Part shown: one piece after another, positions 5,613-18,694 of the stretch | Numbering within the stretch: position 1 is the first letter of the stretch | How the letters are laid out: each line of letters begins with the position of its first letter | NCBI GenBank assembly: GCA_031286285.1 | Contig: JAITUN010000245.1 | Span: 1 to 51,566, forward strand | Length of the DNA stretch: 51,566 nt | Direction: 5' to 3' | Source: Bacteroidales bacterium | Lineage (GTDB): Bacteria; Bacteroidota; Bacteroidia; Bacteroidales; WCHB1-69 | Position numbers and translations under genes: made by a program | The notes under the pieces: model-generated | The model's database searches: none | What the model was told of the DNA's origin: nothing | What the model saw: only the letters and a program-made list of their open reading frames with translations

Positions 5613-5696
5613 GCCATGGTGGCGGAATTGGTAGACGCGCCGGTCTCAAAAACCGGTGAGGTAACACTCGTGCCGGTTCGATCCCGGCCCGTGGTA
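5613..5696 (+). tRNA. tRNA-Leu(CAA)
   Basis: Acceptor GCCATGG/CCGTGGT, D arm GCGGAATTGGTAGACGCGC, anticodon arm CCGGT-CTCAAAA-ACCGG, long variable arm, T arm GCCGG-TTCGATC-CCGGC; CCA not encoded. Confidence 0.93.
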
Positions 5697-5697
5697 C
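5684..5697 (+). repeat. attL core (14-bp direct repeat)
   Basis: CCGGCCCGTGGTAC overlapping tRNA-Leu 3' end. Confidence 0.85.
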
Positions 5698-5791
5698 GAA
5701 AGAAAACGCTAATCGTTTAAAAATAAAATGGTTGGCGTTTTTGCTTTTATTGTTTTGGCACGTGTTTGGCATTTTATCAGAAAATAATGTA

Positions 5792-5829
5792 AAAAGCACC
5801 CAAAAAATCGTGTTTTTCAAGGTGCTTTT
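5792..5829 (-). terminator. Intrinsic terminator at left end of the element
   Basis: AAAAGCACC ... GGTGCTTTT 9-bp stem with T tract on the minus strand. Confidence 0.65.
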
Positions 5830-5902
5830 CGTTTGCATTAAAACAATGCCTTGCGGCATTAATTTCAAGTGCGAAGATATACTTTTTTACATAATGTAAA
5901 AT

Positions 5903-6103
5903 TCAATACGACATTCCATAATAAACAACTTCGTCAAAATAATCATTGAAAATGTTAGTGGCATCTCCTTCTTGAATTTCCATTCTTGTGTAAGTAATAT
6001 GCGTTAAATCGGGTTTTTCCGCAGTGTACTTGCCATCTTTTGTATCAGAAATAAAGTTTATTACTCTATCTGCTTCTTTGCTATAAGGTGCTGTATTTAA
6101 CAT
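5903..6103 (-). CDS. Small hypothetical protein (66 aa), last gene of the cargo
   Basis: ORF starts 8 bp after the stop of the SDH-type protease gene; same strand; followed by a terminator hairpin. Confidence 0.6.
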   Translation of the reverse strand: MLNTAPYSKEADRVINFISDTKDGKYTAEKPDLTHITYTRMEIQEGDATNIFNDYFDEVVYYGMSY

Positions 6104-6110
6104 AGTTATA

Positions 6111-7325
6111 TTATTTAAAAGTTATTTTTCTTTTCGATTGCGTTTCAATTTGATTTTTTATTGGCTTCAAATCAATTTCAAAGTTACAACCTAACCCATC
6201 ACATATTAAAACGTCGTTGTCTTGTATTTTATTATTTACTGGCAGTTGTAACTGTTTAATTTTATTACTGTCAATATCAACATAACCAGGTATTTCGTGT
6301 TTCTTACCACATTTAGGACAAGTAATGTTTAGTACGGTATAATCTATTGTATTTTGTTTATTTGGCATTGGAAAAGGGGCAGGAGCTGGCATATTTGCAT
6401 TTGCAACTGTTGCAGTTCTTGTCAATTGAAAATCTTCCCAAAAATATAATTTGTAATCAGTAGAAAAATCAAAAATCAATCTAATAATAGTTTTGATACG
6501 ATAGACAATATCTGCAAGTAATGGATTTTCATCAATATTTTCAATTATTAACACATCTTTCAAGTCGTCTATTTTTAAAGACCTACCGTGTGTCCGCCAA
6601 TTCATGTGGTCGCATAATTTATTGGCTACGTCTTCTGCTCGCTGTCTTCTCATTTCGGGAGTAACTGCTTGCTGTGTTGTTCGTGTGATAGTCCAATTCT
6701 TGAATTTATATTTTTCCAACCACTCTTTTACAAGGTCTTTGGCAAATTCCAAAGAATTGATAACTCCGTAAATTTCACCAGGAGATATTTGGGCAACCAT
6801 TATAGCGTCAAATGGATTTAATCGCCCGTTGATAGTCGCTTCACTTCTTTTTTGGTCAACCCATTCTTTATAGTCGTGTGCAGAAACTATAGAACGACCA
6901 ATTTTAATTTGTGCATCTATCGGTCCCAAACTCCCTGTTTCACACATATAGATGTTATCCCCCGACAATGCCAAAATAGTTCCTGCACTTTTTGCTTCCC
7001 CTGCAATTACAAAATTAACTTCTTCAAATTTTTTCCGTAGAAATTTTGCAATTTCTTCAGCAGCCTCACCACTACCACCTGGAGTTTCAAGATAAACATC
7101 TATTTGTTTTTTATCGGATTCTCGTAAAATATCTTGAATGGTATAAAAATCATCTTGCATAAGGCTTACATCTATACCTCGTCTTGCTTTGTTAAAATCA
7201 GCAGCATAGACAAAAAGGTTACGATTGGTCAAACCGTTATATTTTTCAATCAATACTTTAAGTTCGGCTTTCAATTCAAGCACCCCCCATCGTTTCGATA
7301 TATATTCATTCAATATACTTGCCAT
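6111..7325 (-). CDS. SDH-type (ClpP/SppA-fold) serine protease with C-terminal zinc ribbon
   Basis: VYLETPGGSGEAAEEIAKFLR, IAGEAKSAGTILALSGDNIYMCETGSLGPIDAQI typical of SDH_protease family; C-terminal CPKCGKKHE...CDGLGC. Confidence 0.85.
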   Translation of the reverse strand: MASILNEYISKRWGVLELKAELKVLIEKYNGLTNRNLFVYAADFNKARRGIDVSLMQDDFYTIQDILRESDKKQIDVYLETPGGSGEAAEEIAKFLRKKFEEVNFVIAGEAKSAGTILALSGDNIYMCETGSLGPIDAQIKIGRSIVSAHDYKEWVDQKRSEATINGRLNPFDAIMVAQISPGEIYGVINSLEFAKDLVKEWLEKYKFKNWTITRTTQQAVTPEMRRQRAEDVANKLCDHMNWRTHGRSLKIDDLKDVLIIENIDENPLLADIVYRIKTIIRLIFDFSTDYKLYFWEDFQLTRTATVANANMPAPAPFPMPNKQNTIDYTVLNITCPKCGKKHEIPGYVDIDSNKIKQLQLPVNNKIQDNDVLICDGLGCNFEIDLKPIKNQIETQSKRKITFK

Positions 7326-7348
7326 AATATTTTTTCATTATTGACGGG

Positions 7349-7356
7349 CAAAAATA
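7349..7356 (-). promoter_or_regulatory. Bacteroidetes-type -7 element (TATTTTTG) for the SDH-type protease gene
   Basis: Complement of CAAAAATA, 24 nt upstream of ATG at 7325; gene follows a terminator. Confidence 0.45.
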
Positions 7357-7373
7357 TTAAAAAATCAAACACT

Positions 7374-7399
7374 TAAAAAAGGGCGATAAAAAATCGCCC
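7374..7399 (-). terminator. Intrinsic terminator after the HSDR_N-like gene
   Basis: Perfect 7-bp stem GGGCGAT-AAAAA-ATCGCCC followed on the minus strand by TTTTTT. Confidence 0.75.
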
Positions 7400-7425
7400 A
7401 AAAATTGGTTCTTTCTTCATAATGA

Positions 7426-8520
7426 TTATTTCACATATTTTTGTATAGCAATAGAAAATTCATTTGAATATTTGAAAATATCATCAACACTATCTATGTC
7501 GTACTTGGTATAACTCCTGTCCTCGTTTTGTATTTCAATTTGTTTCTTTTCAGGATTATTTAAGTATAGACGACACGGACATTGACGCTGTGAGTCATCA
7601 ATCAATATAGAAAAGAATCTTTGAAAATCACGGTGCACAATTCTTTTTTGGTCAATATGGCTTCTTAATATTGATTTAACAATATAAAACCCCTCTATTT
7701 CTTCTTTTGTCGTTATCGTTCCGTCTTCATTAATTGCAACAATTCCTTCCGGCAGTTCTTTTGTTATTGGTGTTGATTTAGCCTCTTCGGTTGGCTCTTT
7801 TGCTTTTTCCTGTTTCTCAATAGCAGATTTCAGCCGTTCTGTTATCATGTCATTTATATACACCACGATAGAATGTTTTGTGAGTTCTGTAAATTGAGCG
7901 AGTATTTTTTCCGTAATTTTTCCATCGTAAATTTCTCTTGCTATCATCTTAACAAATTCAACTGACGGGGTCTCAAATTCTCGTTTCAATATTGCTTTTA
8001 TTTCTCCTGTATATTTAAGTTCACTTGCCGAGTTTATAATACTTTCAACATCAAAATAGGATTTGTGAAACTTTTTCAATTCTTCAATATGCTGTTCCTT
8101 CAAATCTGTTAAATTAACCTCTAAAAATGGCTTTTCATCCATTTTGTTATTCTCTTTTAAATCAGTGTAAAAACGGTAAATAATTCCATTTGTAAGAACG
8201 CCGAATTTTGCAGTTGATACATTGAAATAGCGCAATAATTGGTTATCGTGTAAATCTAATTCCTGCATCCAATGTTTACACTCCATTAAAATAACGGGCT
8301 TTTCATCTTTTAAAATAGCATAGTCTATTTTTTCACCTTTCTTTGTGCCTATATCACATGTAAATTCAGGAACAACTTCAAGTGGGTTAAATACATCGTA
8401 TCCTAATGCTTGAATAAACGGCATTATAAAAGCATTTTTTGTCGCTTCTTCTGTGCCGATATTGTTTTTCAGTTTTTCTATTCTCTCTGATAACTGTTTG
8501 ATTTGGTCTTTTAAGTCCAT
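7426..8520 (-). CDS. Standalone type I restriction R-protein N-terminal-like (HSDR_N_2) protein, putative PD-(D/E)XK nuclease
   Basis: NAFIMPFIQALGYDVFNPLEVVPEFTCDIGTKKGEKIDYAILKDEKPVILMECKHW: D...ExK core; no helicase domain. Confidence 0.8.
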   Translation of the reverse strand: MDLKDQIKQLSERIEKLKNNIGTEEATKNAFIMPFIQALGYDVFNPLEVVPEFTCDIGTKKGEKIDYAILKDEKPVILMECKHWMQELDLHDNQLLRYFNVSTAKFGVLTNGIIYRFYTDLKENNKMDEKPFLEVNLTDLKEQHIEELKKFHKSYFDVESIINSASELKYTGEIKAILKREFETPSVEFVKMIAREIYDGKITEKILAQFTELTKHSIVVYINDMITERLKSAIEKQEKAKEPTEEAKSTPITKELPEGIVAINEDGTITTKEEIEGFYIVKSILRSHIDQKRIVHRDFQRFFSILIDDSQRQCPCRLYLNNPEKKQIEIQNEDRSYTKYDIDSVDDIFKYSNEFSIAIQKYVK

Positions 8521-8659
8521 AGTTTATTGATTTTTTTGGTTAATAATTTATTGATTTATAATATGTTTAAAGTTTTTAGCACAAATGTCCTAACGCTATG
8601 TAATACAAAACGTTTCCTACTGTTTTGAAAGATTACTGCGAGATATAAGCGCAGACCCC

Positions 8660-8801
8660 CTATTAGTGCATAGGTATTGCCTTACCTTAATCCAAATAAG
8701 TAAAGTCCGCGCGAAATGCACGATTCACTTATTGCTTGTTGGATTAATAAGAATGGCAATTTTATGCACCCAAACAATAGCAAACGCTATCTAAGATAGC
8801 G
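8660..8801. ncRNA. Candidate structured RNA or structured origin: multi-helix stem-loop
   Basis: Nested inverted repeats GTGCATA/TATGCAC, ATTGCC/GGCAAT, TTAATCCAA/TTGGATTAA, ATAAGT/ACTTAT over 8666-8769, plus CGCTATCT-A-AGATAGCG at 8785-8801, in a 560-bp gap without a convincing ORF. Confidence 0.45.
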
Positions 8802-8846
8802 GCGCGAAAATAGCAAATTTTCATCTTTAAAAAAACGACCAAAAAA

Positions 8847-8869
8847 TGACGTTGATATTGACGTTGATA
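8847..8869 (+). repeat. Two direct copies of TGACGTTGATA, period 12
   Basis: TGACGTTGATA T TGACGTTGATA. Confidence 0.85.
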
Positions 8870-9082
8870 ATTCCACATTTATCTGCAAAATTAACGATTA
8901 TCTTTAATAAAAACTCATTGTTCTTTCAGTGTTTTACAATAGAAAGGAGATTAATTTTATGCCAAAATTTGCCGCTTTTCACTTTCTTTTGCCATTTTTG
9001 TCAATTCTTGTATTTTTTTGCCGTTTTTTTTCGTATTTTATACTTTATTTTTCGTTCCAAATTGTCGCAAAATGTCATATTT

Positions 9083-10348
9083 TTATTTCTGAAAATATCT
9101 TTTAAAATCCTGTAAATGTTTAAGGTATGGTAGATACGCTTTGTTTGTATAGTGCGCACGTAAGCAAGTCAAACTATTGTCAACAAAAAGTCGTGCATCG
9201 TTTATTGTTGTCCATGCGTTTAATTTAATTGGAACGGTTGGGAGCGTTGCTGTGCTAAAAAATCTTTCAAGTTCTAAAACATCCTCTTCAAAATTTACTG
9301 TTTCTTTTTTGACGGGTAAAACTTCTTCAACAAGTTGTTTGGGTTGCCCTATTATTGGTTCTGTAATACTTTTATTTTCGGGTTGAGGTGTTTGTGTTGG
9401 TTGAGGGTCGGGCAATTTTATTTGACCTTTGCGTAGCATTGTTTCTAAATAATCTGCTAAGTCATAACCTTTTTTGCGTTCTTCTTCGGTTGCATTGTTC
9501 TCTATCAAAGAAGAAACATCTACTTTACAGATTTTTTTTAACTCTTTGGCTTTTTCACTCCATTTGTCAAATAAAGTTTTTCCTTCTTTGTCGGGAGTTT
9601 TTGCATCGGGATATAAAATTACGTTACGCCCTTGTAAACATCGGCACTTGTCAATATTAATTCCTCCACTTCCACCACTTGCAAGCCATATTGTATCGGG
9701 GAAACAAACACTCGCTAAAATGGCTGTTTTTTCGCTTTCCACAATTGCAATGGGTTTGGTAGTGTCTTTCAAAAGATGTTCGCCAAAAAAGCATTGAAAT
9801 AGATTAAAAGAAGGTATTTCTATAAGTTTGTGTATCCACTGTACCGGTGGCATTATATTTTGATTTCTGTGTCCATCGTCTTTGAAAACAATAACCTTTC
9901 CGGCTCTAATTTTATATTTCATATCTACTTGCCAAAATACTGTCGCACCACCAGAATATTTTGATGTTCCTACAAAATAGCGTTCTATTGCTTTGGAGGC
10001 GATCGCCTCCCCAACAATGTCCACCAACCACATAGCAAAATTGTTTTGTTCGTAATGTTTCATAGATTGTTTCAATAGTTTGGCATCGTGGAAAGTGGGA
10101 AGAAGCGGAGGGGTTGGGTTCGGGATAGGTGCCAAAGTCGCTTTTTTCTCAGGAGAAATATTGTTGTCCTTAAAATACTGTCTTGGGGTGTAATGATGGG
10201 CGCAATTATCGACACGGTCACATTTTCCAACGGCTGAATTTAACGGCTCACCTGTTTCGTTATCAATGTATAAAACAAACCTCTTTTTTCCACACGCGGG
10301 ACAAATATGCTTTCCTTTTTTTGCTAAACTATATTTGTGTTCTGTCAT
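9083..10348 (-). CDS. Primase-like/DUF6371-type zinc-finger and Toprim-like protein
   Basis: N-terminal HICPACGKKRFVLYID...GKCDRVDNCAHHYTPRQYF zinc finger; IAIVESEKTAILAS...WLASGGSGG...NVILYPDAKTPDKEGKTLFDKW Toprim-like core. Confidence 0.75.
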   Translation of the reverse strand: MTEHKYSLAKKGKHICPACGKKRFVLYIDNETGEPLNSAVGKCDRVDNCAHHYTPRQYFKDNNISPEKKATLAPIPNPTPPLLPTFHDAKLLKQSMKHYEQNNFAMWLVDIVGEAIASKAIERYFVGTSKYSGGATVFWQVDMKYKIRAGKVIVFKDDGHRNQNIMPPVQWIHKLIEIPSFNLFQCFFGEHLLKDTTKPIAIVESEKTAILASVCFPDTIWLASGGSGGINIDKCRCLQGRNVILYPDAKTPDKEGKTLFDKWSEKAKELKKICKVDVSSLIENNATEEERKKGYDLADYLETMLRKGQIKLPDPQPTQTPQPENKSITEPIIGQPKQLVEEVLPVKKETVNFEEDVLELERFFSTATLPTVPIKLNAWTTINDARLFVDNSLTCLRAHYTNKAYLPYLKHLQDFKRYFQK

Positions 10349-10389
10349 AAATAATTTGTTTTTAAAACTTTATATTTATTTCGCTTACT

Positions 10390-10442
10390 TGTCCCATATT
10401 GTCCCACTGTCCCATATTTATAAATGTGGGACACTTGGGACA
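10390..10442. repeat. Iteron/operator-like cluster of TGTCCCA (3 forward, 2 inverted)
   Basis: TGTCCCA at 10390, 10400, 10408; TGGGACA at 10427, 10436. Confidence 0.85.
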
Positions 10443-10449
10443 AACCCAT

Positions 10450-11490
10450 TTATTTTTTTAATATCCTTTCAACTGTACTTTTTGAGGTGTGCAATTCATC
10501 GGCAATTTCGCGGTAACTTTTTCCCTCTGTTTTTAATCTCTTTATGTTGGCTTCTAACTCTGCCTTGTCATTTTCGCTTTGTTGCTTTAAGTGGTTTAAT
10601 TCCGTGTCAAAACCAATGTGTTTAAGGTGTAAAAATGAATTTTCCTTAACTTTTTCATAAATTGGCACGTGTTCACTATCATAAACAACGTCGCCTGACC
10701 GTACTTTCAATTGTTTGATATATCTTAAATTTTTATCTTTTGCACTTTTACCTATTGAAAAAACAGCATCGGCAAAATTTGCTTTATGCTTGCTCCCTTG
10801 TAAATCATTCAAACTTATGGGACGGCTTTCATCGGTTTTGCGGTTGTGCTCCAAAAGCAATAATGTTAAATTATATTCAAACTTCAAATCCTGCAATTTA
10901 TCCATTAAAGGTTTGGCAGTTCTTGCATTATCCGTATCACTACTAACTAACTTTGTCATATTGTCAATAATAACAATTCTTGCACCAGTTGAAATTACCA
11001 ATTCTTTAAGACTATCAATGAAATATGTATCGTAATCCACTCCATTTGGTACGCGAAAAGGTCGGATAAAGTCGGGGCGGATAAGGTTTTCTTTAAAAAC
11101 ATATTCGCTTTGATATTCTTCTGAATATCTGCCCTGAAACTGTTTGTCTGACAACTCCAAATCAATATATAAGACTTTATCGGTTTTACTGATTTCATTT
11201 GCCATTTGCACGGCGAAAATTGATTTTCCTAAGCCGGTATCTGCAAATAATATCGTGATTTCTTCTTCTAATAAAAGGTCATCATATAGTTTTCGTGGTA
11301 TTGGTTGCGTTTTTGCATCATTTATACATTGGTTTGCTGTACGAACACGAAAAAGCCCAACCTGTGAGGGCGATTTGTTTAATAACTGTTTCTTTTCTGT
11401 ATCAATAGCATCGAACGTTATGGCTGTGCCCTCATCGGGTTTTTGATTATCAAAAATAGAAAAATCGGGTTTTACATTAGTCATAATCAT
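10450..11490 (-). CDS. RepA-like AAA ATPase (AAA_25/RecA-like) with C-terminal HTH
   Basis: ITILFADTGLGKSIFAVQMANEIS Walker A; VLYIDLEL, RIVIIDNMTKL Walker B-like; C-terminal KRLKTEGKSYREIADELHTSKSTVERILKK. Confidence 0.85.
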   Translation of the reverse strand: MIMTNVKPDFSIFDNQKPDEGTAITFDAIDTEKKQLLNKSPSQVGLFRVRTANQCINDAKTQPIPRKLYDDLLLEEEITILFADTGLGKSIFAVQMANEISKTDKVLYIDLELSDKQFQGRYSEEYQSEYVFKENLIRPDFIRPFRVPNGVDYDTYFIDSLKELVISTGARIVIIDNMTKLVSSDTDNARTAKPLMDKLQDLKFEYNLTLLLLEHNRKTDESRPISLNDLQGSKHKANFADAVFSIGKSAKDKNLRYIKQLKVRSGDVVYDSEHVPIYEKVKENSFLHLKHIGFDTELNHLKQQSENDKAELEANIKRLKTEGKSYREIADELHTSKSTVERILKK

Positions 11491-11795
11491 TTTTCCTTTC
11501 CTAAAATTTTGTTTATATCACTCATACGATAGCGGCGTTTACCACCAATCTCAATGGTTTTTAGATAGTTCGCCTTATTCCACCTCCACAAAGTTGCGGG
11601 GGAAACATTTAGAATTTTCGCCACCTGTGCAGGGCTTGGATAGGTTTCGGTGTTGGCATCGGTAATTTGTTGCTCTAACTCTTTGCGAGTTCTATTTATA
11701 CAAAATTCCGTTGCTTCAATAAGTTCTCCCAACTTTACACTGATAGTTACTTCGGGACAGGTTCGTGCAAGTTCTGCAATGTTATTATAATTCAT
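11487..11795 (-). CDS. Excisionase/HTH_17 (MerR-like) DNA-binding protein
   Basis: YPSPAQVAKILNVSPATLWRWNKANYLKTIEIGGKRRYRMSDINKIL; start chosen at internal Met (MNYNNIAELA); upstream ORF extension looks non-coding. Confidence 0.82.
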   Translation of the reverse strand: MNYNNIAELARTCPEVTISVKLGELIEATEFCINRTRKELEQQITDANTETYPSPAQVAKILNVSPATLWRWNKANYLKTIEIGGKRRYRMSDINKILGKEK

Positions 11796-11823
11796 AATTG
11801 AAAAATTTAAGTTCCGCCTTTCC

Positions 11824-11846
11824 CCGAAAGGTGGCCACACTTTCGG
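11824..11846. promoter_or_regulatory. Inverted repeat upstream of the HTH gene
   Basis: CCGAAAG-GTGGCCAC-A-CTTTCGG: 7-bp arms around an 8-bp palindrome, 29 nt before the chosen start. Confidence 0.5.
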
Positions 11847-11997
11847 TTGTTTTGACTGCTGCAATAATAATGCGTTTTTTGCGGGGGCAATGGGGGTACT
11901 GCGGGAAAAATAAAAAAAGAAAGACATTAATTTGATTAAAAATCAACGTCTTATAAAATATTGAAAGAGAATGTTTGGGTATGAGTGGGGGTAACTA

Positions 11998-12786
11998 TTA
12001 TTTATACATAGATTTTAGTTCATTGTGCTCGGAAAAGTCCGTTTTTGATTGGCATTCTTCAAGTGATTTTCCGAGTTTTTGCGCAGCTCTTTCGCCCCAT
12101 TCTTTACCTAAAAATAGTAAGCGAGATAAAACACAAATATTATATCGTACTCTTTGCGCTTTCCCCTCTTTGTGTATTTCGGAAAAATCGGCAGTTCGTA
12201 CCATTTCAATAAATCGGTGTTGTGAAATATCTTTGAAAATGTTTTTGTAATAACGTTCATCCAAACCGTTCCAAAAATTAAAATTTTCCAAAAGTTTGAT
12301 TTCTTGTGCTTTGGAAAATTCAAGTTTGGTAGTAGTAGGCGCATAAATATTATTGCTTTCAGATGTTTGTTTTCCTGTGGTTTGTTCAACTTTAATATTC
12401 AAAAGTTCTATAATTCTGAAACAACGATAAATTTCATTAAAGGAACAATAAACAATATCATCATCAATACATTTTAAATCTATTTGTTTTTCAGCAAAAT
12501 GGGCAGCAATAAATTCTGTAAAACTTTCCGTCTCAATGTTTGGATTTTCAAATTTACATTTTCTTATTGCTTCAATAAATTCTCTTATTATGCTGTTATT
12601 ACAGTTATAGTATTTTTCAATATCATTTTTACATTTTGTTCTAAGTGCTTCTGTACGACTTTCTTTATCTTTGTAAAAATCTCCCTCGTTAAATGTTATA
12701 TTGACTTCACTTATCACATCGTCTTGGTTGGCTATAATAATTGTTGCCAAATCATACCTGAATTTATTGTAATCACTTTTTTTCAT
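11998..12786 (-). CDS. Hypothetical protein (262 aa) translationally coupled to integrase
   Basis: ATG overlaps integrase stop by 1 nt (TAATG); C-terminal block FIEMVRTADFSEIHKEGKAQRVRYNICVLSRLL...EWGERAAQKLGKSLEEC. Confidence 0.75.
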   Translation of the reverse strand: MKKSDYNKFRYDLATIIIANQDDVISEVNITFNEGDFYKDKESRTEALRTKCKNDIEKYYNCNNSIIREFIEAIRKCKFENPNIETESFTEFIAAHFAEKQIDLKCIDDDIVYCSFNEIYRCFRIIELLNIKVEQTTGKQTSESNNIYAPTTTKLEFSKAQEIKLLENFNFWNGLDERYYKNIFKDISQHRFIEMVRTADFSEIHKEGKAQRVRYNICVLSRLLFLGKEWGERAAQKLGKSLEECQSKTDFSEHNELKSMYK

Positions 12787-14177
12787 TATTCTAACATTTT
12801 AACAAGTTCATTTTTCAAATCTTCGTCAATTTCACGATAACGCGCAAAGGCTCTACTTCCCTCTTTGTGCCCCGAAAGTGCGCCCACTAAGTTAGGGTCT
12901 TTCACTTGTTTGTAAAGATTGCCAACAAAGCAACGGCGGGCAAGGTGTGATGATGCTATTTCGTTCATGGGGCGGATTACACTTTCGCGTGTAAGAGGGT
13001 CAAGGGTAACAACTGGGCGGGTTATCCCTGCGACTGTAAATGCTGATTTGATTGCGTAGTTATATTTTTGTTCAGATATGTAGGGGAATAATGTTTTTCC
13101 CTCAAAATCGGCGTATTTCTCTAAAATTGCCTTTGATATAGTGTTCAGAGGCACGCGCACTGTTACAGGTCGCCCATCTTTCGTTTTTCGGGCAATATAT
13201 TCTATGGCACCATTAATAACATTCTGTTTTGTGAATTTATAAAGGTCAGCAATACGGCAACCTATCAAACATTGAAAAATGAATATATCCCTTTGTACTT
13301 CCAAAGTGGGACGGTGCGAAAGGTCGGTATTATAAAGGCGGTTTCTTTCTTCAATGGTAATATAATAGGGTGTGCCATAAACACATTCTTCTACTGAATA
13401 TTTTTTGAAAGGGTTGTTTTGGGTTTTCTCATTATCTACTGCCCATAAAAAGAAAGTTCTTAGCCTTTTCATTACGTCATTGATTGTATTTTGACCGCGT
13501 GGCTTCGGATTGTGAAACTGTGGACATTTCTCGTATATTTCGGGATATTCCACGCAAATTTCGTGTTCTCTCCGCAAAAACTTTGACAAATCTTGTAAGG
13601 TTTCAGAGGTAATATTATCCAACTGTAAAGTAAAATCCTGTTTTTCTTTTACAGATAGGCGAATATAAAGTTCATACCTCCGCATTGTCCTAACAACAAC
13701 ACGATAATTTTTTTTCCTAACTTCGGATTGATTGTATTTCTCTAAAAATTCATCACAAGCATCAAAGAATGATTGATTTTGTTCTGTTTCTTTTTTCGGG
13801 GCGTATTCGCCGCGTTGGTAAAATTTATCAATGCTATTCACTAACCAATCGGATACGATGTTTTTGTCCTTTGGGTCAAACAAATTGCCTATTGAATTGG
13901 TGAGGCTTTTTAATTTGTCGCTTTGTTCTGTAAGATACTGTTTTAATGCTTTTTTCTCATTATTCCAAACGCGAAAGTTAGGGATAACGATTTTGTCCTC
14001 TTTGGCTTCGAAATCCCAAATATTCCATTTCTTTCCATTCTCATCTACAAATACTGCGGGAATAAAAATTCCTGTTTTTGCGAATTGGTCTATTTTCCCG
14101 TGAGAAAATCTAATTAAGATTTCTTGTTTTTTCGTTGTATCTACTTTCGTAGATAGTCTCAAATAAATTGTTGCCAT
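12786..14177 (-). CDS. Tyrosine recombinase/integrase
   Basis: Catalytic signature: LIGCRIADLYKF (Arg), SSHLARRCF (HxxR), LSGHKEGSRAFARYREID (His, Tyr). Confidence 0.93.
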   Translation of the reverse strand: MATIYLRLSTKVDTTKKQEILIRFSHGKIDQFAKTGIFIPAVFVDENGKKWNIWDFEAKEDKIVIPNFRVWNNEKKALKQYLTEQSDKLKSLTNSIGNLFDPKDKNIVSDWLVNSIDKFYQRGEYAPKKETEQNQSFFDACDEFLEKYNQSEVRKKNYRVVVRTMRRYELYIRLSVKEKQDFTLQLDNITSETLQDLSKFLRREHEICVEYPEIYEKCPQFHNPKPRGQNTINDVMKRLRTFFLWAVDNEKTQNNPFKKYSVEECVYGTPYYITIEERNRLYNTDLSHRPTLEVQRDIFIFQCLIGCRIADLYKFTKQNVINGAIEYIARKTKDGRPVTVRVPLNTISKAILEKYADFEGKTLFPYISEQKYNYAIKSAFTVAGITRPVVTLDPLTRESVIRPMNEIASSHLARRCFVGNLYKQVKDPNLVGALSGHKEGSRAFARYREIDEDLKNELVKMLE

Positions 14178-14220
14178 AAGTATATTGTTTAATGCGTGGC
14201 GAAAATATACTTATTTTTCA

Positions 14221-14242
14221 TTTTTCCCGACTTTTTCCCGAC
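14221..14242. repeat. Tandem TTTTTCCCGAC x2 near integrase promoter/attR
   Basis: Two perfect 11-bp copies. Confidence 0.8.
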
Positions 14243-14382
14243 TTTTTTGAAAATAAATGATATTTTATGAAAGTGTATGATGAGATGTTTACGCTTATAA
14301 TTCGCTCTTTATCATATCATTTTGTATGATTTTTCGCAGTTTTTCAATAGATGCGAAAATGGCATTATTTCATAGATTAAAT

Positions 14383-14396
14383 CCGGCCCGTGGTAC
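14383..14396 (+). repeat. attR core (14-bp direct repeat)
   Basis: CCGGCCCGTGGTAC identical to 5684-5697. Confidence 0.85.
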
Positions 14397-14401
14397 AACT
14401 T

Positions 14402-14425
14402 AAAACTGCTCAAAAGGGCAGTTTT
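14402..14425 (+). terminator. Intrinsic terminator, probably the original tRNA-Leu terminator displaced by integration
   Basis: AAAACTGC-TCAAAAGG-GCAGTTTT followed by TTT. Confidence 0.75.
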
Positions 14426-14500: not shown

Positions 14501-16966
14501 ATGAAAGATTTATTAAAAAGAGGGCTCCCATTTTTTGTAGCCATCATTGTTTTTATTCTGTTTACACTTATCTATTGTTCTCCGGTATTTGAAGGAAAAA
14601 TTGTTCAAGGTGGAGATATTTTAAGTTGGAAAGGAATGTATCAGGAAGCAAAATTGTATAATGAAAAAACAGGGAACAATACTTTTTGGACCGGTTCCAT
14701 GTTTTCAGGAATGCCTAATTATCAAATTGGCGGCGGGAAAATTTTTTCTGATTCTCTCTTGGCTCCTATAAATAGAATTTCTTCTCTTGGATTTAAACAT
14801 GTTTTGAGATTGTTGATTTGGTATTTGATTGGTTTTTTTATTTTATTAAGGTCTTTCAAGATAAATAAATGGCTATGTATCATAGGGGCTATGGCTATAA
14901 CACTATCTTCCTATTTCTTTATCATTATTCAAGCTGGACATGTTACTAAAGCACAAACCATTGCCCTAATGGCGCCTGTTATTGCGGGCTTTTTTCTCAT
15001 TTACAACAAAAAATATATTTGGGGACTCCTTTTTACAATTACGTATTGCGCCTTAGGAGTACTTCCGCACCCACAAATGTCTTACTATTTCTTTCTCTTA
15101 ATAGGTTGTCTATTTTTTGCTGAGCTATTTATACATATTAAAGAAAAAAGAATAAAAGAGTTTTTAATTGCTACACTTCTTTTTGGAGCAGCTGTTGGAG
15201 TTGGTTTGGGAACCTGTTATACTAGAGTTTCTTTGAATCAGGAGTATGTTAATGAAACGATGCGTGGCGGGCATTCCGAATTGGTAAAAGAGGGAGACGA
15301 TCAAAATAAAACAGACGGATTAGACTTAGATTATGCAACTAATTGGAGTTATGGAATTGATGAAACCATGACTCTTCTTATCCCAAATTTTATGGGAGCA
15401 TCTTCTTATTATAATGTAGGTACAAACTCGAAAGTGTATGAAGAGTTGATAAAAAACTACGTTCCTAAGAAAAATTCAGCAGGCTTTTGTAATAATGTAC
15501 CAACTTATTGGGGAAAACAACCCTTTACGGCTGGCCCAGTTTATATAGGAGCTATTATCTGCTTCCTGTTTGTATTAGGATTATGTATTGTGAAAGGTCC
15601 TTATAAATGGGCGCTTTTGGTAGCCACTCTCTTTTCAATTTTGCTTTCTTGGGGAAAAAACTTCATGCCTCTCACGGAATTCTTTTTTAACTATTTTCCG
15701 CTTTATAATAAGTTCAGAACTGTCTCTTCTATTTTGGTTGTAGCTGAAATTACCATGCCGTTATTGGGATTTCTTGCAATTAAAACAATTATGGACAAAC
15801 AGATTACAAATAAACGGATTATTATAAGTATTTATATTTCAGCAGGAATAACTGCTGGATTATGCCTGTTTTATGCTCTGTTTGGAAGTATAATTTATGA
15901 CTTTAAATCTCCGTTTGACGAAATTAATTTTTCTCAAATGCAGATTCCAGAATGGTTAGGAGATGCTATTATTGCTGAAAGAGAATCTATGTTCATTAAT
16001 GATGCCCTTCGTTCTTGCGCATTTATTCTTTTGGGAGCAGGAACGCTGTGGTTATTTGTGGTTCACCCTCTCAAAGAGAAAATAAAAATACCTCTCTTTT
16101 TAGCTGCCTTAGGTGTACTGATTTTGGCAGATATGTGGACCGTAAGTCAACGTTTCTTTAATGATAACCATTTCGTTGATTCAAAAAAAGAAACTAATTA
16201 TTTTAAAAAACAACCCTACGAAGAATATATATTAAGAGATTCCTCCCATTTTAGAGTATTGAATAGGACTACAGATACTTTTAATGAATCAAGAACATCC
16301 TATTATTTGAAATCTATTGGTGGATATCATGCTGCAAAATTGCGCAGGTATCAAGATTTAATTTCTGAACATATTTCTAAAAGAAATATGAAAGTTCTTA
16401 ACATGCTAAATGCTAAATATTTCATAGTACCTGGGTACAATAATGAACCGATTGTGCAGCAAAACCCCGAAGCTATGGGAAATGCTTGGTATATTGACTC
16501 TATACTCGTTGTGAATACAACAAACGAAGAATGTGATGCCCTCAATGAAATTGACCCTAAAACAACCGCCGTTTTAGATGCTAAATTTGCCGATTTTGTG
16601 AAAGATTTTGTTCCCGTAAAAGATTCTGCTGCTCACGTGAAGTTTCTTTCTTATGCGCCGAATGCTCTTGAATACCAAACTTATTCTAACTATGACGGAA
16701 TTGTTGTATTCTCCGAAATTTATTATCCTTATGGATGGAAAGCGTATATTGATGCTAATCCGATTGAGCATTTCCGTGTAAACTACATATTAAGAGCACT
16801 TAACGTCCCAGCCGGTGAGCATCATATCCGTTTTGAGTTTAAACCTGATGCCATTAAAAAGTATGAACCTATTTCTATTTTGTGTATTTTTATCTTGTAT
16901 GGAATCATCATTGGTGGAATTGTGTATTATTTTGTGAGAAAAAAGAAAAAAGTGGAAATAAAGTAA
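14501..16966 (+). CDS. YfhO-family membrane protein
   Basis: Many TM segments; GGDILSWKGMYQEAK, FWTGSMFSGMPNYQI; C-terminal FSEIYYPYGWKAYIDANP...RALNVPAGEHHIRFEFKP. Confidence 0.85.
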   Translation: MKDLLKRGLPFFVAIIVFILFTLIYCSPVFEGKIVQGGDILSWKGMYQEAKLYNEKTGNNTFWTGSMFSGMPNYQIGGGKIFSDSLLAPINRISSLGFKHVLRLLIWYLIGFFILLRSFKINKWLCIIGAMAITLSSYFFIIIQAGHVTKAQTIALMAPVIAGFFLIYNKKYIWGLLFTITYCALGVLPHPQMSYYFFLLIGCLFFAELFIHIKEKRIKEFLIATLLFGAAVGVGLGTCYTRVSLNQEYVNETMRGGHSELVKEGDDQNKTDGLDLDYATNWSYGIDETMTLLIPNFMGASSYYNVGTNSKVYEELIKNYVPKKNSAGFCNNVPTYWGKQPFTAGPVYIGAIICFLFVLGLCIVKGPYKWALLVATLFSILLSWGKNFMPLTEFFFNYFPLYNKFRTVSSILVVAEITMPLLGFLAIKTIMDKQITNKRIIISIYISAGITAGLCLFYALFGSIIYDFKSPFDEINFSQMQIPEWLGDAIIAERESMFINDALRSCAFILLGAGTLWLFVVHPLKEKIKIPLFLAALGVLILADMWTVSQRFFNDNHFVDSKKETNYFKKQPYEEYILRDSSHFRVLNRTTDTFNESRTSYYLKSIGGYHAAKLRRYQDLISEHISKRNMKVLNMLNAKYFIVPGYNNEPIVQQNPEAMGNAWYIDSILVVNTTNEECDALNEIDPKTTAVLDAKFADFVKDFVPVKDSAAHVKFLSYAPNALEYQTYSNYDGIVVFSEIYYPYGWKAYIDANPIEHFRVNYILRALNVPAGEHHIRFEFKPDAIKKYEPISILCIFILYGIIIGGIVYYFVRKKKKVEIK

Positions 16967-17068
16967 TTGCTGTCAATTGAATTGAACTCTTAATTGACAA
17001 ATAAGTATTCCGGATTTTTCGAAATGAAAGTACCGTGAATCTGAAAATAATATATCAATAACCCCTAA

Positions 17069-18694
17069 TTACTCCTCATAATTCCAATCAGAATCATTTA
17101 AAAATTCCTGTAATTCACTTTTACTGAAACCTACATAAAAGTAAACGCTATAATCTGTGTACTCAATCACAAAACTAAATCCATTATCTTGAAACAAATA
17201 ATATTTTCCTTTTTTGCTCTCCATTTGTAGTTTTTGATTTTGCTCGATTTCTGTTTTTATTGCATTTGCAACAGCACCCGCTTTTCTGTAAGCTTTTCCG
17301 GAAAGGTCAAATTCATATTTTATTGCAAAGGGTTTTGCATCAAAATCATATTCTTTTTTTGTACCTGATTGATACGAATATCCCCAATAATAATCATAAG
17401 TAGCCACTTCTTTATAAATAGCTTCATCGAAATGAAAAGAAACTTTATAAAGAGAAATATCTTTTGTAATATCTGTTCTAGGATAACACGATACAGTATA
17501 TTTATCTACTGCATTCAAATCATCTCCATAATTAGAGTTATTTGACAAATCATTTAAGGTGGAAGATTCATTAAAACCATCGAAAAGAGACCCTGTATTT
17601 TTTTTGAAAAAAATGTTTATAAATGAGGTAGCATCGTAATAATCGCTTTTAACGTTGGTAAATAAATTCGTAGCAATTGACCATAAAAATTTATGATATA
17701 ATTTAACACTTTCAAATTGTGGGTTGATAACATATTTTCCTTTTTTATCAATAAATCCCCATTTATCAGCACTTTCCACAGGAGCAATATCTCCATAAAA
17801 AAACCAAACATCATCAAATTGCGGATTAATCTCATATTTTCCTTGTTTGTTAAGGTAGCCTGAAGTTTTACCCTGTTTCACTGGAGATAGTCCATTTAAG
17901 AAAAACAAAACATCATCAAATTGCGGATTTATTTCAAATTCTCCTTTTGTGTTTATAAATCCATATTTATCTCCTTGTTCAACTCTTGCCAATCCCTCGC
18001 TGAATGAAAAGACGTCACTATATTGCGGATTGATAACATAAGCACCCTTAGTGTCAATAAATCCCCATTTTTTGCCATCATAAAAAGCCGCTTTTCCTTC
18101 TTTGAAATTAAGGACTCTCTCAAATTGTGGATTAATTAATAATTTTCCATCCTTACCAATAAATCCCCATTTTTTATTTTGTTTCACTGCAGCAAATCCT
18201 TCAAAGAAAGGAATTGCTTCTTCAAATTGAGGATTAATTGCCACGTTTCCATTTTTGTCAACGAATCCATATTTATCATCTGAATTAATAAATAATGCTA
18301 ATCCTTCGCTGAAAGCAAAAACCCTTTCGGCTTCTTTTAAAACAAATTTAACATTACCTTTTTTATCAATACAGGTAGGAGGACCGCCATCTGAAACAAC
18401 AAAAGCAAATCCTTCACAAAAAGCAGTACCATATTTGTAGATTGCTGCTATTTCAAACTTCCCGCTTTTGTTGATGTACCCTGTTTTTCCTTCTGAATTT
18501 TCAACCCTTGCTAAGCCATCATAGAAAAAATCAGCATCTTCAAATTGGGGATTAACAACAAAGAGGCCCTTAGGGTTAATATACCCCCATTTGTCAGCTT
18601 GTTGAACCGGAATTAACGCAAAATCTTGTTGATTTGAACAAGAAAATAATAAACTTACCATTATAGTAAGCAAACAAAAAATAAAGTTTTTCAT
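17069..18694 (-). CDS. WG-repeat lipoprotein
   Basis: Lipobox MVSLLFSCSNQQ; multiple tandem KWGFIDKKGKYVINPQFE-type repeats. Confidence 0.88.
   Translation of the reverse strand: MKNFIFCLLTIMVSLLFSCSNQQDFALIPVQQADKWGYINPKGLFVVNPQFEDADFFYDGLARVENSEGKTGYINKSGKFEIAAIYKYGTAFCEGFAFVVSDGGPPTCIDKKGNVKFVLKEAERVFAFSEGLALFINSDDKYGFVDKNGNVAINPQFEEAIPFFEGFAAVKQNKKWGFIGKDGKLLINPQFERVLNFKEGKAAFYDGKKWGFIDTKGAYVINPQYSDVFSFSEGLARVEQGDKYGFINTKGEFEINPQFDDVLFFLNGLSPVKQGKTSGYLNKQGKYEINPQFDDVWFFYGDIAPVESADKWGFIDKKGKYVINPQFESVKLYHKFLWSIATNLFTNVKSDYYDATSFINIFFKKNTGSLFDGFNESSTLNDLSNNSNYGDDLNAVDKYTVSCYPRTDITKDISLYKVSFHFDEAIYKEVATYDYYWGYSYQSGTKKEYDFDAKPFAIKYEFDLSGKAYRKAGAVANAIKTEIEQNQKLQMESKKGKYYLFQDNGFSFVIEYTDYSVYFYVGFSKSELQEFLNDSDWNYEE

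Follow-up and report, generated by a model that had tools for sequence, protein, structure and literature searches.

A complete tRNA-Leu(CAA) gene at 5613..5697 (+), recognized by ARAGORN and by the Rfam tRNA model, is the only tRNA that ARAGORN finds in the window, by which we mean the whole 51,566-nt stretch of DNA analysed here; the host is an uncultured Bacteroidales bacterium with a draft genome of about 91% completeness. The last 14 nt of the gene, CCGGCCCGTGGTAC (5684..5697, +), recur exactly at 14383..14396 (+). A search allowing up to two mismatches finds these two sites and no others in the window, including no third internal core of the kind a tandem might have left, where shuffled sequences give a mean of 0.03 copies and base composition predicts ~1e-5 exact ones. 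This repeat, on which the original prediction of an integrative element was built, is thus exact and unique in the window, and we refer to its two copies as the attL and attR cores. The attL core is similarly placed in 16 related elements described below.

Terminator-like hairpins lie directly outside both cores (terminator scan). At the left junction, the core is followed by GAAAG and then by a hairpin at 5702..5742 (+), on the element side; at the right junction, it is followed by AAC and then by a hairpin at 14402..14425 (+), on the chromosome side. Empty tRNA-Leu(CAA) sites in three congeners (G001, G002 and G003) consist of CCGGCCCGTGGTAC, AAC and a terminator hairpin. Since these sites match the right junction, we assign the right side to the original chromosome and the left side to the element; 14402..14425 is then the displaced original tRNA terminator, and 5702..5742 its element-encoded replacement. 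The agreement is limited to the core, the three bases that follow and the presence of a terminator, and it rests on few bases past the core because downstream genes vary between species. Integration at tRNA-Leu(CAA) with these boundaries is supported by the three empty sites together with 16 elements of the same topology, and regeneration of the tRNA at the left junction, also predicted, is supported by the ARAGORN call, which spans the complete gene.

The flanks agree in part with what had been expected of them, namely ordinary chromosomal genes on either side. On the left, an acyl-CoA synthetase gene lies upstream of the same tRNA in G001 and G003 also. On the right, a yfhO-like gene has orthologues in the congeners, but none adjoins the tRNA. 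The empty site had been predicted to read tRNA-Leu...CCGGCCCGTGGTACAACTTAAAACTG; the congeners bear out the AAC after the core, whereas further along the right flank shows no conservation beside their tRNA. The element is not set apart from its surroundings by GC content.

Between the cores are eight credible ORFs, all on the minus strand with the integrase last, as anticipated. The intact tyrosine integrase beside the right repeat (12786..14177, -; PF13102, PF00589; phrog_1) has the catalytic residues R308, K331, H411, R414, H437 and Y447, all six invariant across 13 aligned integrases, as expected of an active tyrosine recombinase. It is followed by a 262-aa protein of unknown function (11998..12786, -), for which family searches gave no convincing match and the structure model was unusable (pLDDT 36), and by an HTH_17 excisionase-like protein (11487..11795, -; PF12728 3e-9; phrog_66 excisionase and regulator 2e-7), whose ORF opens at 11927 while homology begins near Met45, homologues aligning from residue 48. 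Next come an AAA_25/RepA-like ATPase with a C-terminal HTH (10450..11490, -; PF13481 4e-18; phrog_239 primase/helicase 1e-20) and a protein combining DUF6371, Zn_ribbon_16 and DUF6965 (9083..10348, -; PF19898 7e-53, PF21957, PF22292), which we take to be primase-like. None of the five congeners has the DUF6371 backbone protein, which occurs in 2 of the 40 genomes searched, the host genome included.

The tRNA-proximal genes encode an HSDR_N endonuclease-like protein (7426..8520, -; PF04313 2e-15; phrog_4225 endonuclease 3e-128), a ClpP/SDH-type serine protease with a C-terminal zinc-ribbon-like part (6111..7325, -; PF01972 1.5e-12; phrog_11747 4e-48) and a 66-aa product of unknown function (5903..6103, -) for which family searches gave no convincing match. 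Nuclease homologues, 39-61% identical, occur in many phages of many hosts, and protease homologues, 65-66% identical, occur in viral contigs; the two contigs whose ORFs were listed resemble transposable phages, as judged from the neighbouring ORFs. Neither protein was matched by PADLOC, no solved structure related in sequence to either was found, and IMG/VR queries with DUF6371 and the nuclease found no relative. We regard the nuclease and protease as exchangeable cargo, probably serving phage-related conflict.

No relaxase was found in the element by Pfam, NCBIfam, PHROGs and PADLOC scans, and there are no type IV secretion genes among the eight. The element also contains no terminase, portal, capsid or tail gene and no packaging-redirecting gene; its ClpP-like gene best matches phrog_11747, a family of unknown function.

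A family of small tRNA islands and its routes of transfer

A scan of genome contigs identified 80 relatives of the integrase in Bacteroidales, 16 of which belong to complete elements, 4.7-11.2 kb long, that have 12-21 bp repeats of a tRNA 3' end at their borders. The target tRNAs are Leu(CAA) in six, Leu(GAG) in three, Leu(TAA) in two, Leu(CAG), Lys and Met in one each, and Arg in two. In all 16 the tRNA lies at the integrase-distal end, the orientation for which the search was set up, and the second core is found a short way upstream of the integrase. All 16 also have a hairpin and T run inside the tRNA-side core, which we read as a replacement terminator, and most have paired 11-bp repeats 40-75 bases from that core. 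The element in the window shows this same layout of integrase-distal tRNA, core upstream of the integrase, replacement terminator and paired 11-bp repeats; matching arm repeats, which it lacks, are not part of the family definition. No relaxase was detected in the 16 complete loci by tblastn with one relaxase and one NikA query, and relaxases are present in eight other loci that have related integrases and no tRNA. Among the commonest families listed for 88 other proteins of the relatives are primase/helicase, DnaB, DnaC/DnaD-like loaders, RusA and varied cargo, and several relatives carry phage-type replication genes.

The nearest kin, L156, is an 8.8-kb element at tRNA-Leu(TAA) in a Tannerellaceae MAG (JAISBL010000099.1). 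Its integrase is 65% identical, its HTH, AAA and DUF6371 genes are in the same order, and it shares the att layout. It differs in its target tRNA, in having arm repeats that match at both ends, and in carrying a terminase-small-subunit-like gene (16847-17176, +; Pfam GP3_package 1.4e-7; phrog_606 7e-8), inside the tRNA-bounded element, where ours carries the nuclease and protease. Two further loci were noted. In G001 (L119, C135, 3960-4750) a partial related integrase lies at the end of a contig, with a core of the tRNA-Leu(GAG) type and, upstream, an 11-bp paired repeat, and the host genome contains a second, distantly related element (L035, C311, 12667-17976) with an integrase 32% identical, DUF6043 and HTH genes.

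Together, these observations make it very probable that 5698-14396 is a small integrated mobile element of 8.7 kb from a family of tRNA islands, 4.7-11 kb long, found Bacteroidales-wide, which is the best explanation overall. The tyrosine integrase would recombine the 14-bp core with the 3' end of tRNA-Leu(CAA), and integration would rebuild the tRNA and supply it with a new terminator. Once excised, the island may replicate by means of its AAA/DUF6371 module, and it may spread with the help of another element, be it conjugation machinery or a phage. We class it with the tRNA islands that lack a relaxase and take its presumed transfer to be of a mobilisable or satellite-like type.

That it is a PICI-type phage satellite relying on a helper phage for packaging is a credible reading that falls somewhat short of probable. 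Phage-inducible chromosomal islands resemble the element in their integrase, regulator, primase-like module, tRNA site and small size. The tRNA site, the integrase with an excisionase-like gene, the phage-type replication families, the relaxase-free scans and the phage homologues of the cargo all fit such a life style, of which the TerS-like gene of L156 is the best hint, from a single relative. However, the packaging-type gene occurs in that one relative only and the element in the window has none; members of the HSDR_N and DUF6371 families are not confined to satellites. Nor was a helper identified: a phrog_2 terminase match in the host genome is weak, and the same search was positive in 11 of 14 controls.

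It is also quite possible, if short of an even prospect, that the element is mobilisable without a relaxase of its own, a conjugative element transferring it by way of an oriT within the island. Relaxase-bearing elements occur in the same integrase clade, and DUF6371 and this integrase type are found together with a Mob_Pre relaxase in a fecal record. On the other side, no oriT was identified in the island, and no PF03432 relaxase was found across the draft host genome. Because the relaxase-bearing relatives belong to the same integrase clade, transfer by conjugation and transfer by phage are not distinguishable here. The fecal record itself (L259, MT836828.1), labelled a bacteriophage, also contains DUF3987, a ThsA-like gene and type I S subunits, and is a mobilisable element rather than a phage. 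Two plasmid records labelled circular and carrying this integrase type were considered as excised circles and dropped; the annotated record includes a chromosomal gene, and their source assemblies contain dozens of numbered plasmids.

Descent from a prophage that has lost its virion genes is very improbable: related integrases do occur in viral contigs, but the genes here are intact, compact and co-oriented, and the 16 relatives are alike in size class and layout, which would be unexpected under random decay. No capsid genes were found in the family members examined, by the searches used.

Several known systems offer points of comparison. NBU1, an integrative mobilizable element of Bacteroides, is similar in size, Leu-tRNA site and int-xis-primase order, a backbone order that would favour a mobilisable island; its core sequence differs. 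By its description, NBU1 likewise combines a tyrosine integrase with an excision factor, but it has a MobP relaxase and an oriT, and no relaxase was found here (PMC5704250). Mobile genomic islands without a relaxase have been reviewed from Firmicutes and Proteobacteria; like the element, they encode their own integrase and excision factor and no conjugation proteins, whereas a tie to a helper through oriT or MobI would be putative for ours (PMC5704250). The nearest experimental analogue is the 10K genomic island of Riemerella anatipestifer, for which PCR demonstrated integration as well as a circular form; it lies downstream of an Arg tRNA, and no plaques were induced (PMC6764341). Compared by description, that island is likewise about 10 kb, from Bacteroidota, tRNA-adjacent and equipped with a tyrosine integrase, and differs in its target tRNA and in a 53-bp repeat beside it (PMC6764341). 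Unlike phage-inducible chromosomal islands, the element has neither a packaging gene nor a known helper, although its kin L156 has a TerS-like gene.

The mismatched ends of the element

Both ends carry paired 11-bp repeats that, by analogy with other integrases, are probable arm sites. At the right end, TTTTTCCCGAC occurs twice (14221..14242) as a perfect 11-bp repeat, a match equalled in 1 of 300 shuffles; the motif is close to the arms of L156, and these are the probable arm sites of the element's own integrase. At the left end, the pair TTTGGCACGTG/TTTGGCA (5753..5776, +) is probably of a different lineage and is near-identical to repeats at a tRNA-Arg on contig C233 of the host genome and at a tRNA-Glu in G005. 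In 11 of the 11 relatives in which both pairs are detectable, left and right repeats match each other, with scores of 9-22; in the window they disagree, with a score of 4. Moreover, the best score of the right-arm motif in the left 413 bases is 7, against a shuffled mean of 7.1.

The left repeats lie within a conserved block (5728..5888) shared with integrase-less remnants in the same genome. One copy of the block, 86% identical over 160 bp, lies 31 bp downstream of tRNA-Arg(CCG) on C233, and another, 70% identical, adjoins tRNA-Glu(TTC) on C277. Past these copies are ordinary genes or a fragment of an HSDR_N nuclease gene, and an integrase is absent. We note the first locus (L031, 19649-19809) as an integrase-less element end at tRNA-Arg(CCG), and the second (L033, 8409-8679) as one at tRNA-Glu(TTC), followed by the nuclease gene fragment. 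In G005, similar left ends are found at tRNA-Glu and at tRNA-Asp, one of them downstream of the integrase of another element. The tRNA-Asp element (L097, G005:C33, 5551-11325) has a foreign left end just beyond its integrase side, likely by tandem accretion.

Because remnants with a similar left end occur at other tRNAs of the genus and the arms mismatch, the element is probably a hybrid. The simplest reading, which we favour with some reserve, is that the left end was swapped with that of another island, or that a tandem underwent a deletion. A more doubtful view, though one to be taken seriously, holds that the element is unbroken and fully functional, its own ends having merely diverged and the arm mismatch being meaningless. 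The perfect cores and the intact integrase agree with such an element, as does a left end that keeps the usual order of core, terminator and repeat at the usual spacing. This view is opposed by the shuffle-level score of the right-arm motif in the left 413 bases, when relatives match in 11 of 11 cases, and by a left end whose nearest counterpart is the integrase-less remnant at tRNA-Arg, with an arm repeat in common. If the left end was indeed exchanged with another family member, excision by the element's own integrase may be weak. The original claim that the island was captured whole accordingly holds for the cores and is doubtful for the integrase arm sites.

A structured leader RNA upstream of the nuclease gene

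The noncoding interval between the backbone and the cargo contains a structured leader RNA of ~215 nt (8599..8816, -), which lies 78 nt ahead of the start codon of HSDR_N and is recognized by covariation and by a fold z of -4.9. Its relatives lie elsewhere in the host genome and genus, upstream of unrelated genes; two copies are on the contig of the second element of the host genome (C311). In an alignment of 26 copies, 88.9% of cells form standard pairs and the covariation score is 0.606, versus 0.198 in shuffles and less than 0.09 for slid structures, although the copies were aligned to the model, a procedure that favours the structure. Matches to a wider model occur in 90 of 247 genomes from the order and in 26 of 248 sampled from the phylum, and 33 matches from the order, also fitted to the model, give 93.9% pairs and a covariation score of 0.686 versus 0.171. 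No Rfam 15 family exceeds threshold over the motif, in the window or in the other copies, and neither Flavo-1 nor any other Rfam family accounts for it. We also considered the block as a cis-acting origin of transfer or replication, and dropped this idea because copies were found upstream of ordinary genes.

Complementarity links the right strand of the apical hairpin to a second strand close to the 3' end; in most copies this second strand abuts a U run. Scores for a copy's own partner exceed those for permuted partners (19.6 versus 17.8 +- 0.3, and 18.2 versus 15.1 +- 0.6). In the window the complementarity is kept and the U run is missing. A gene on the same strand, often for a predicted secreted protein, usually begins within about 120 bases of the RNA. 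This arrangement suggests an attenuator-like leader. We see evenly balanced grounds for and against the fuller reading, in which 8599-8816 (-) is a copy of a widespread Bacteroidota leader RNA class, undescribed in the open papers covered, that has a long multi-helix arm and an alternative apical pairing as in a transcription attenuator, precedes many unrelated genes and here controls the island nuclease. It is probably the most novel item in the window.

Implications for Bacteroidales islands

We conclude that the element is a real, well-bounded tRNA island, of a kind already known, with a probable hybrid left end. It gives a replicated plan of small Bacteroidales tRNA islands, with a core, a replacement terminator, paired 11-bp arm repeats and exchangeable cargo on the tRNA side, and it is a testable case of end-swapping between islands. 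We found no described phage satellites of Bacteroidales in the literature searched; the packaging-type gene in L156, together with the lack of a detected relaxase in the 16 relatives, raises the question of whether a phage satellite family exists in this order. Should a regulatory role of the leader RNA be confirmed, it would represent a common RNA device in a phylum for which few such devices have been characterised.
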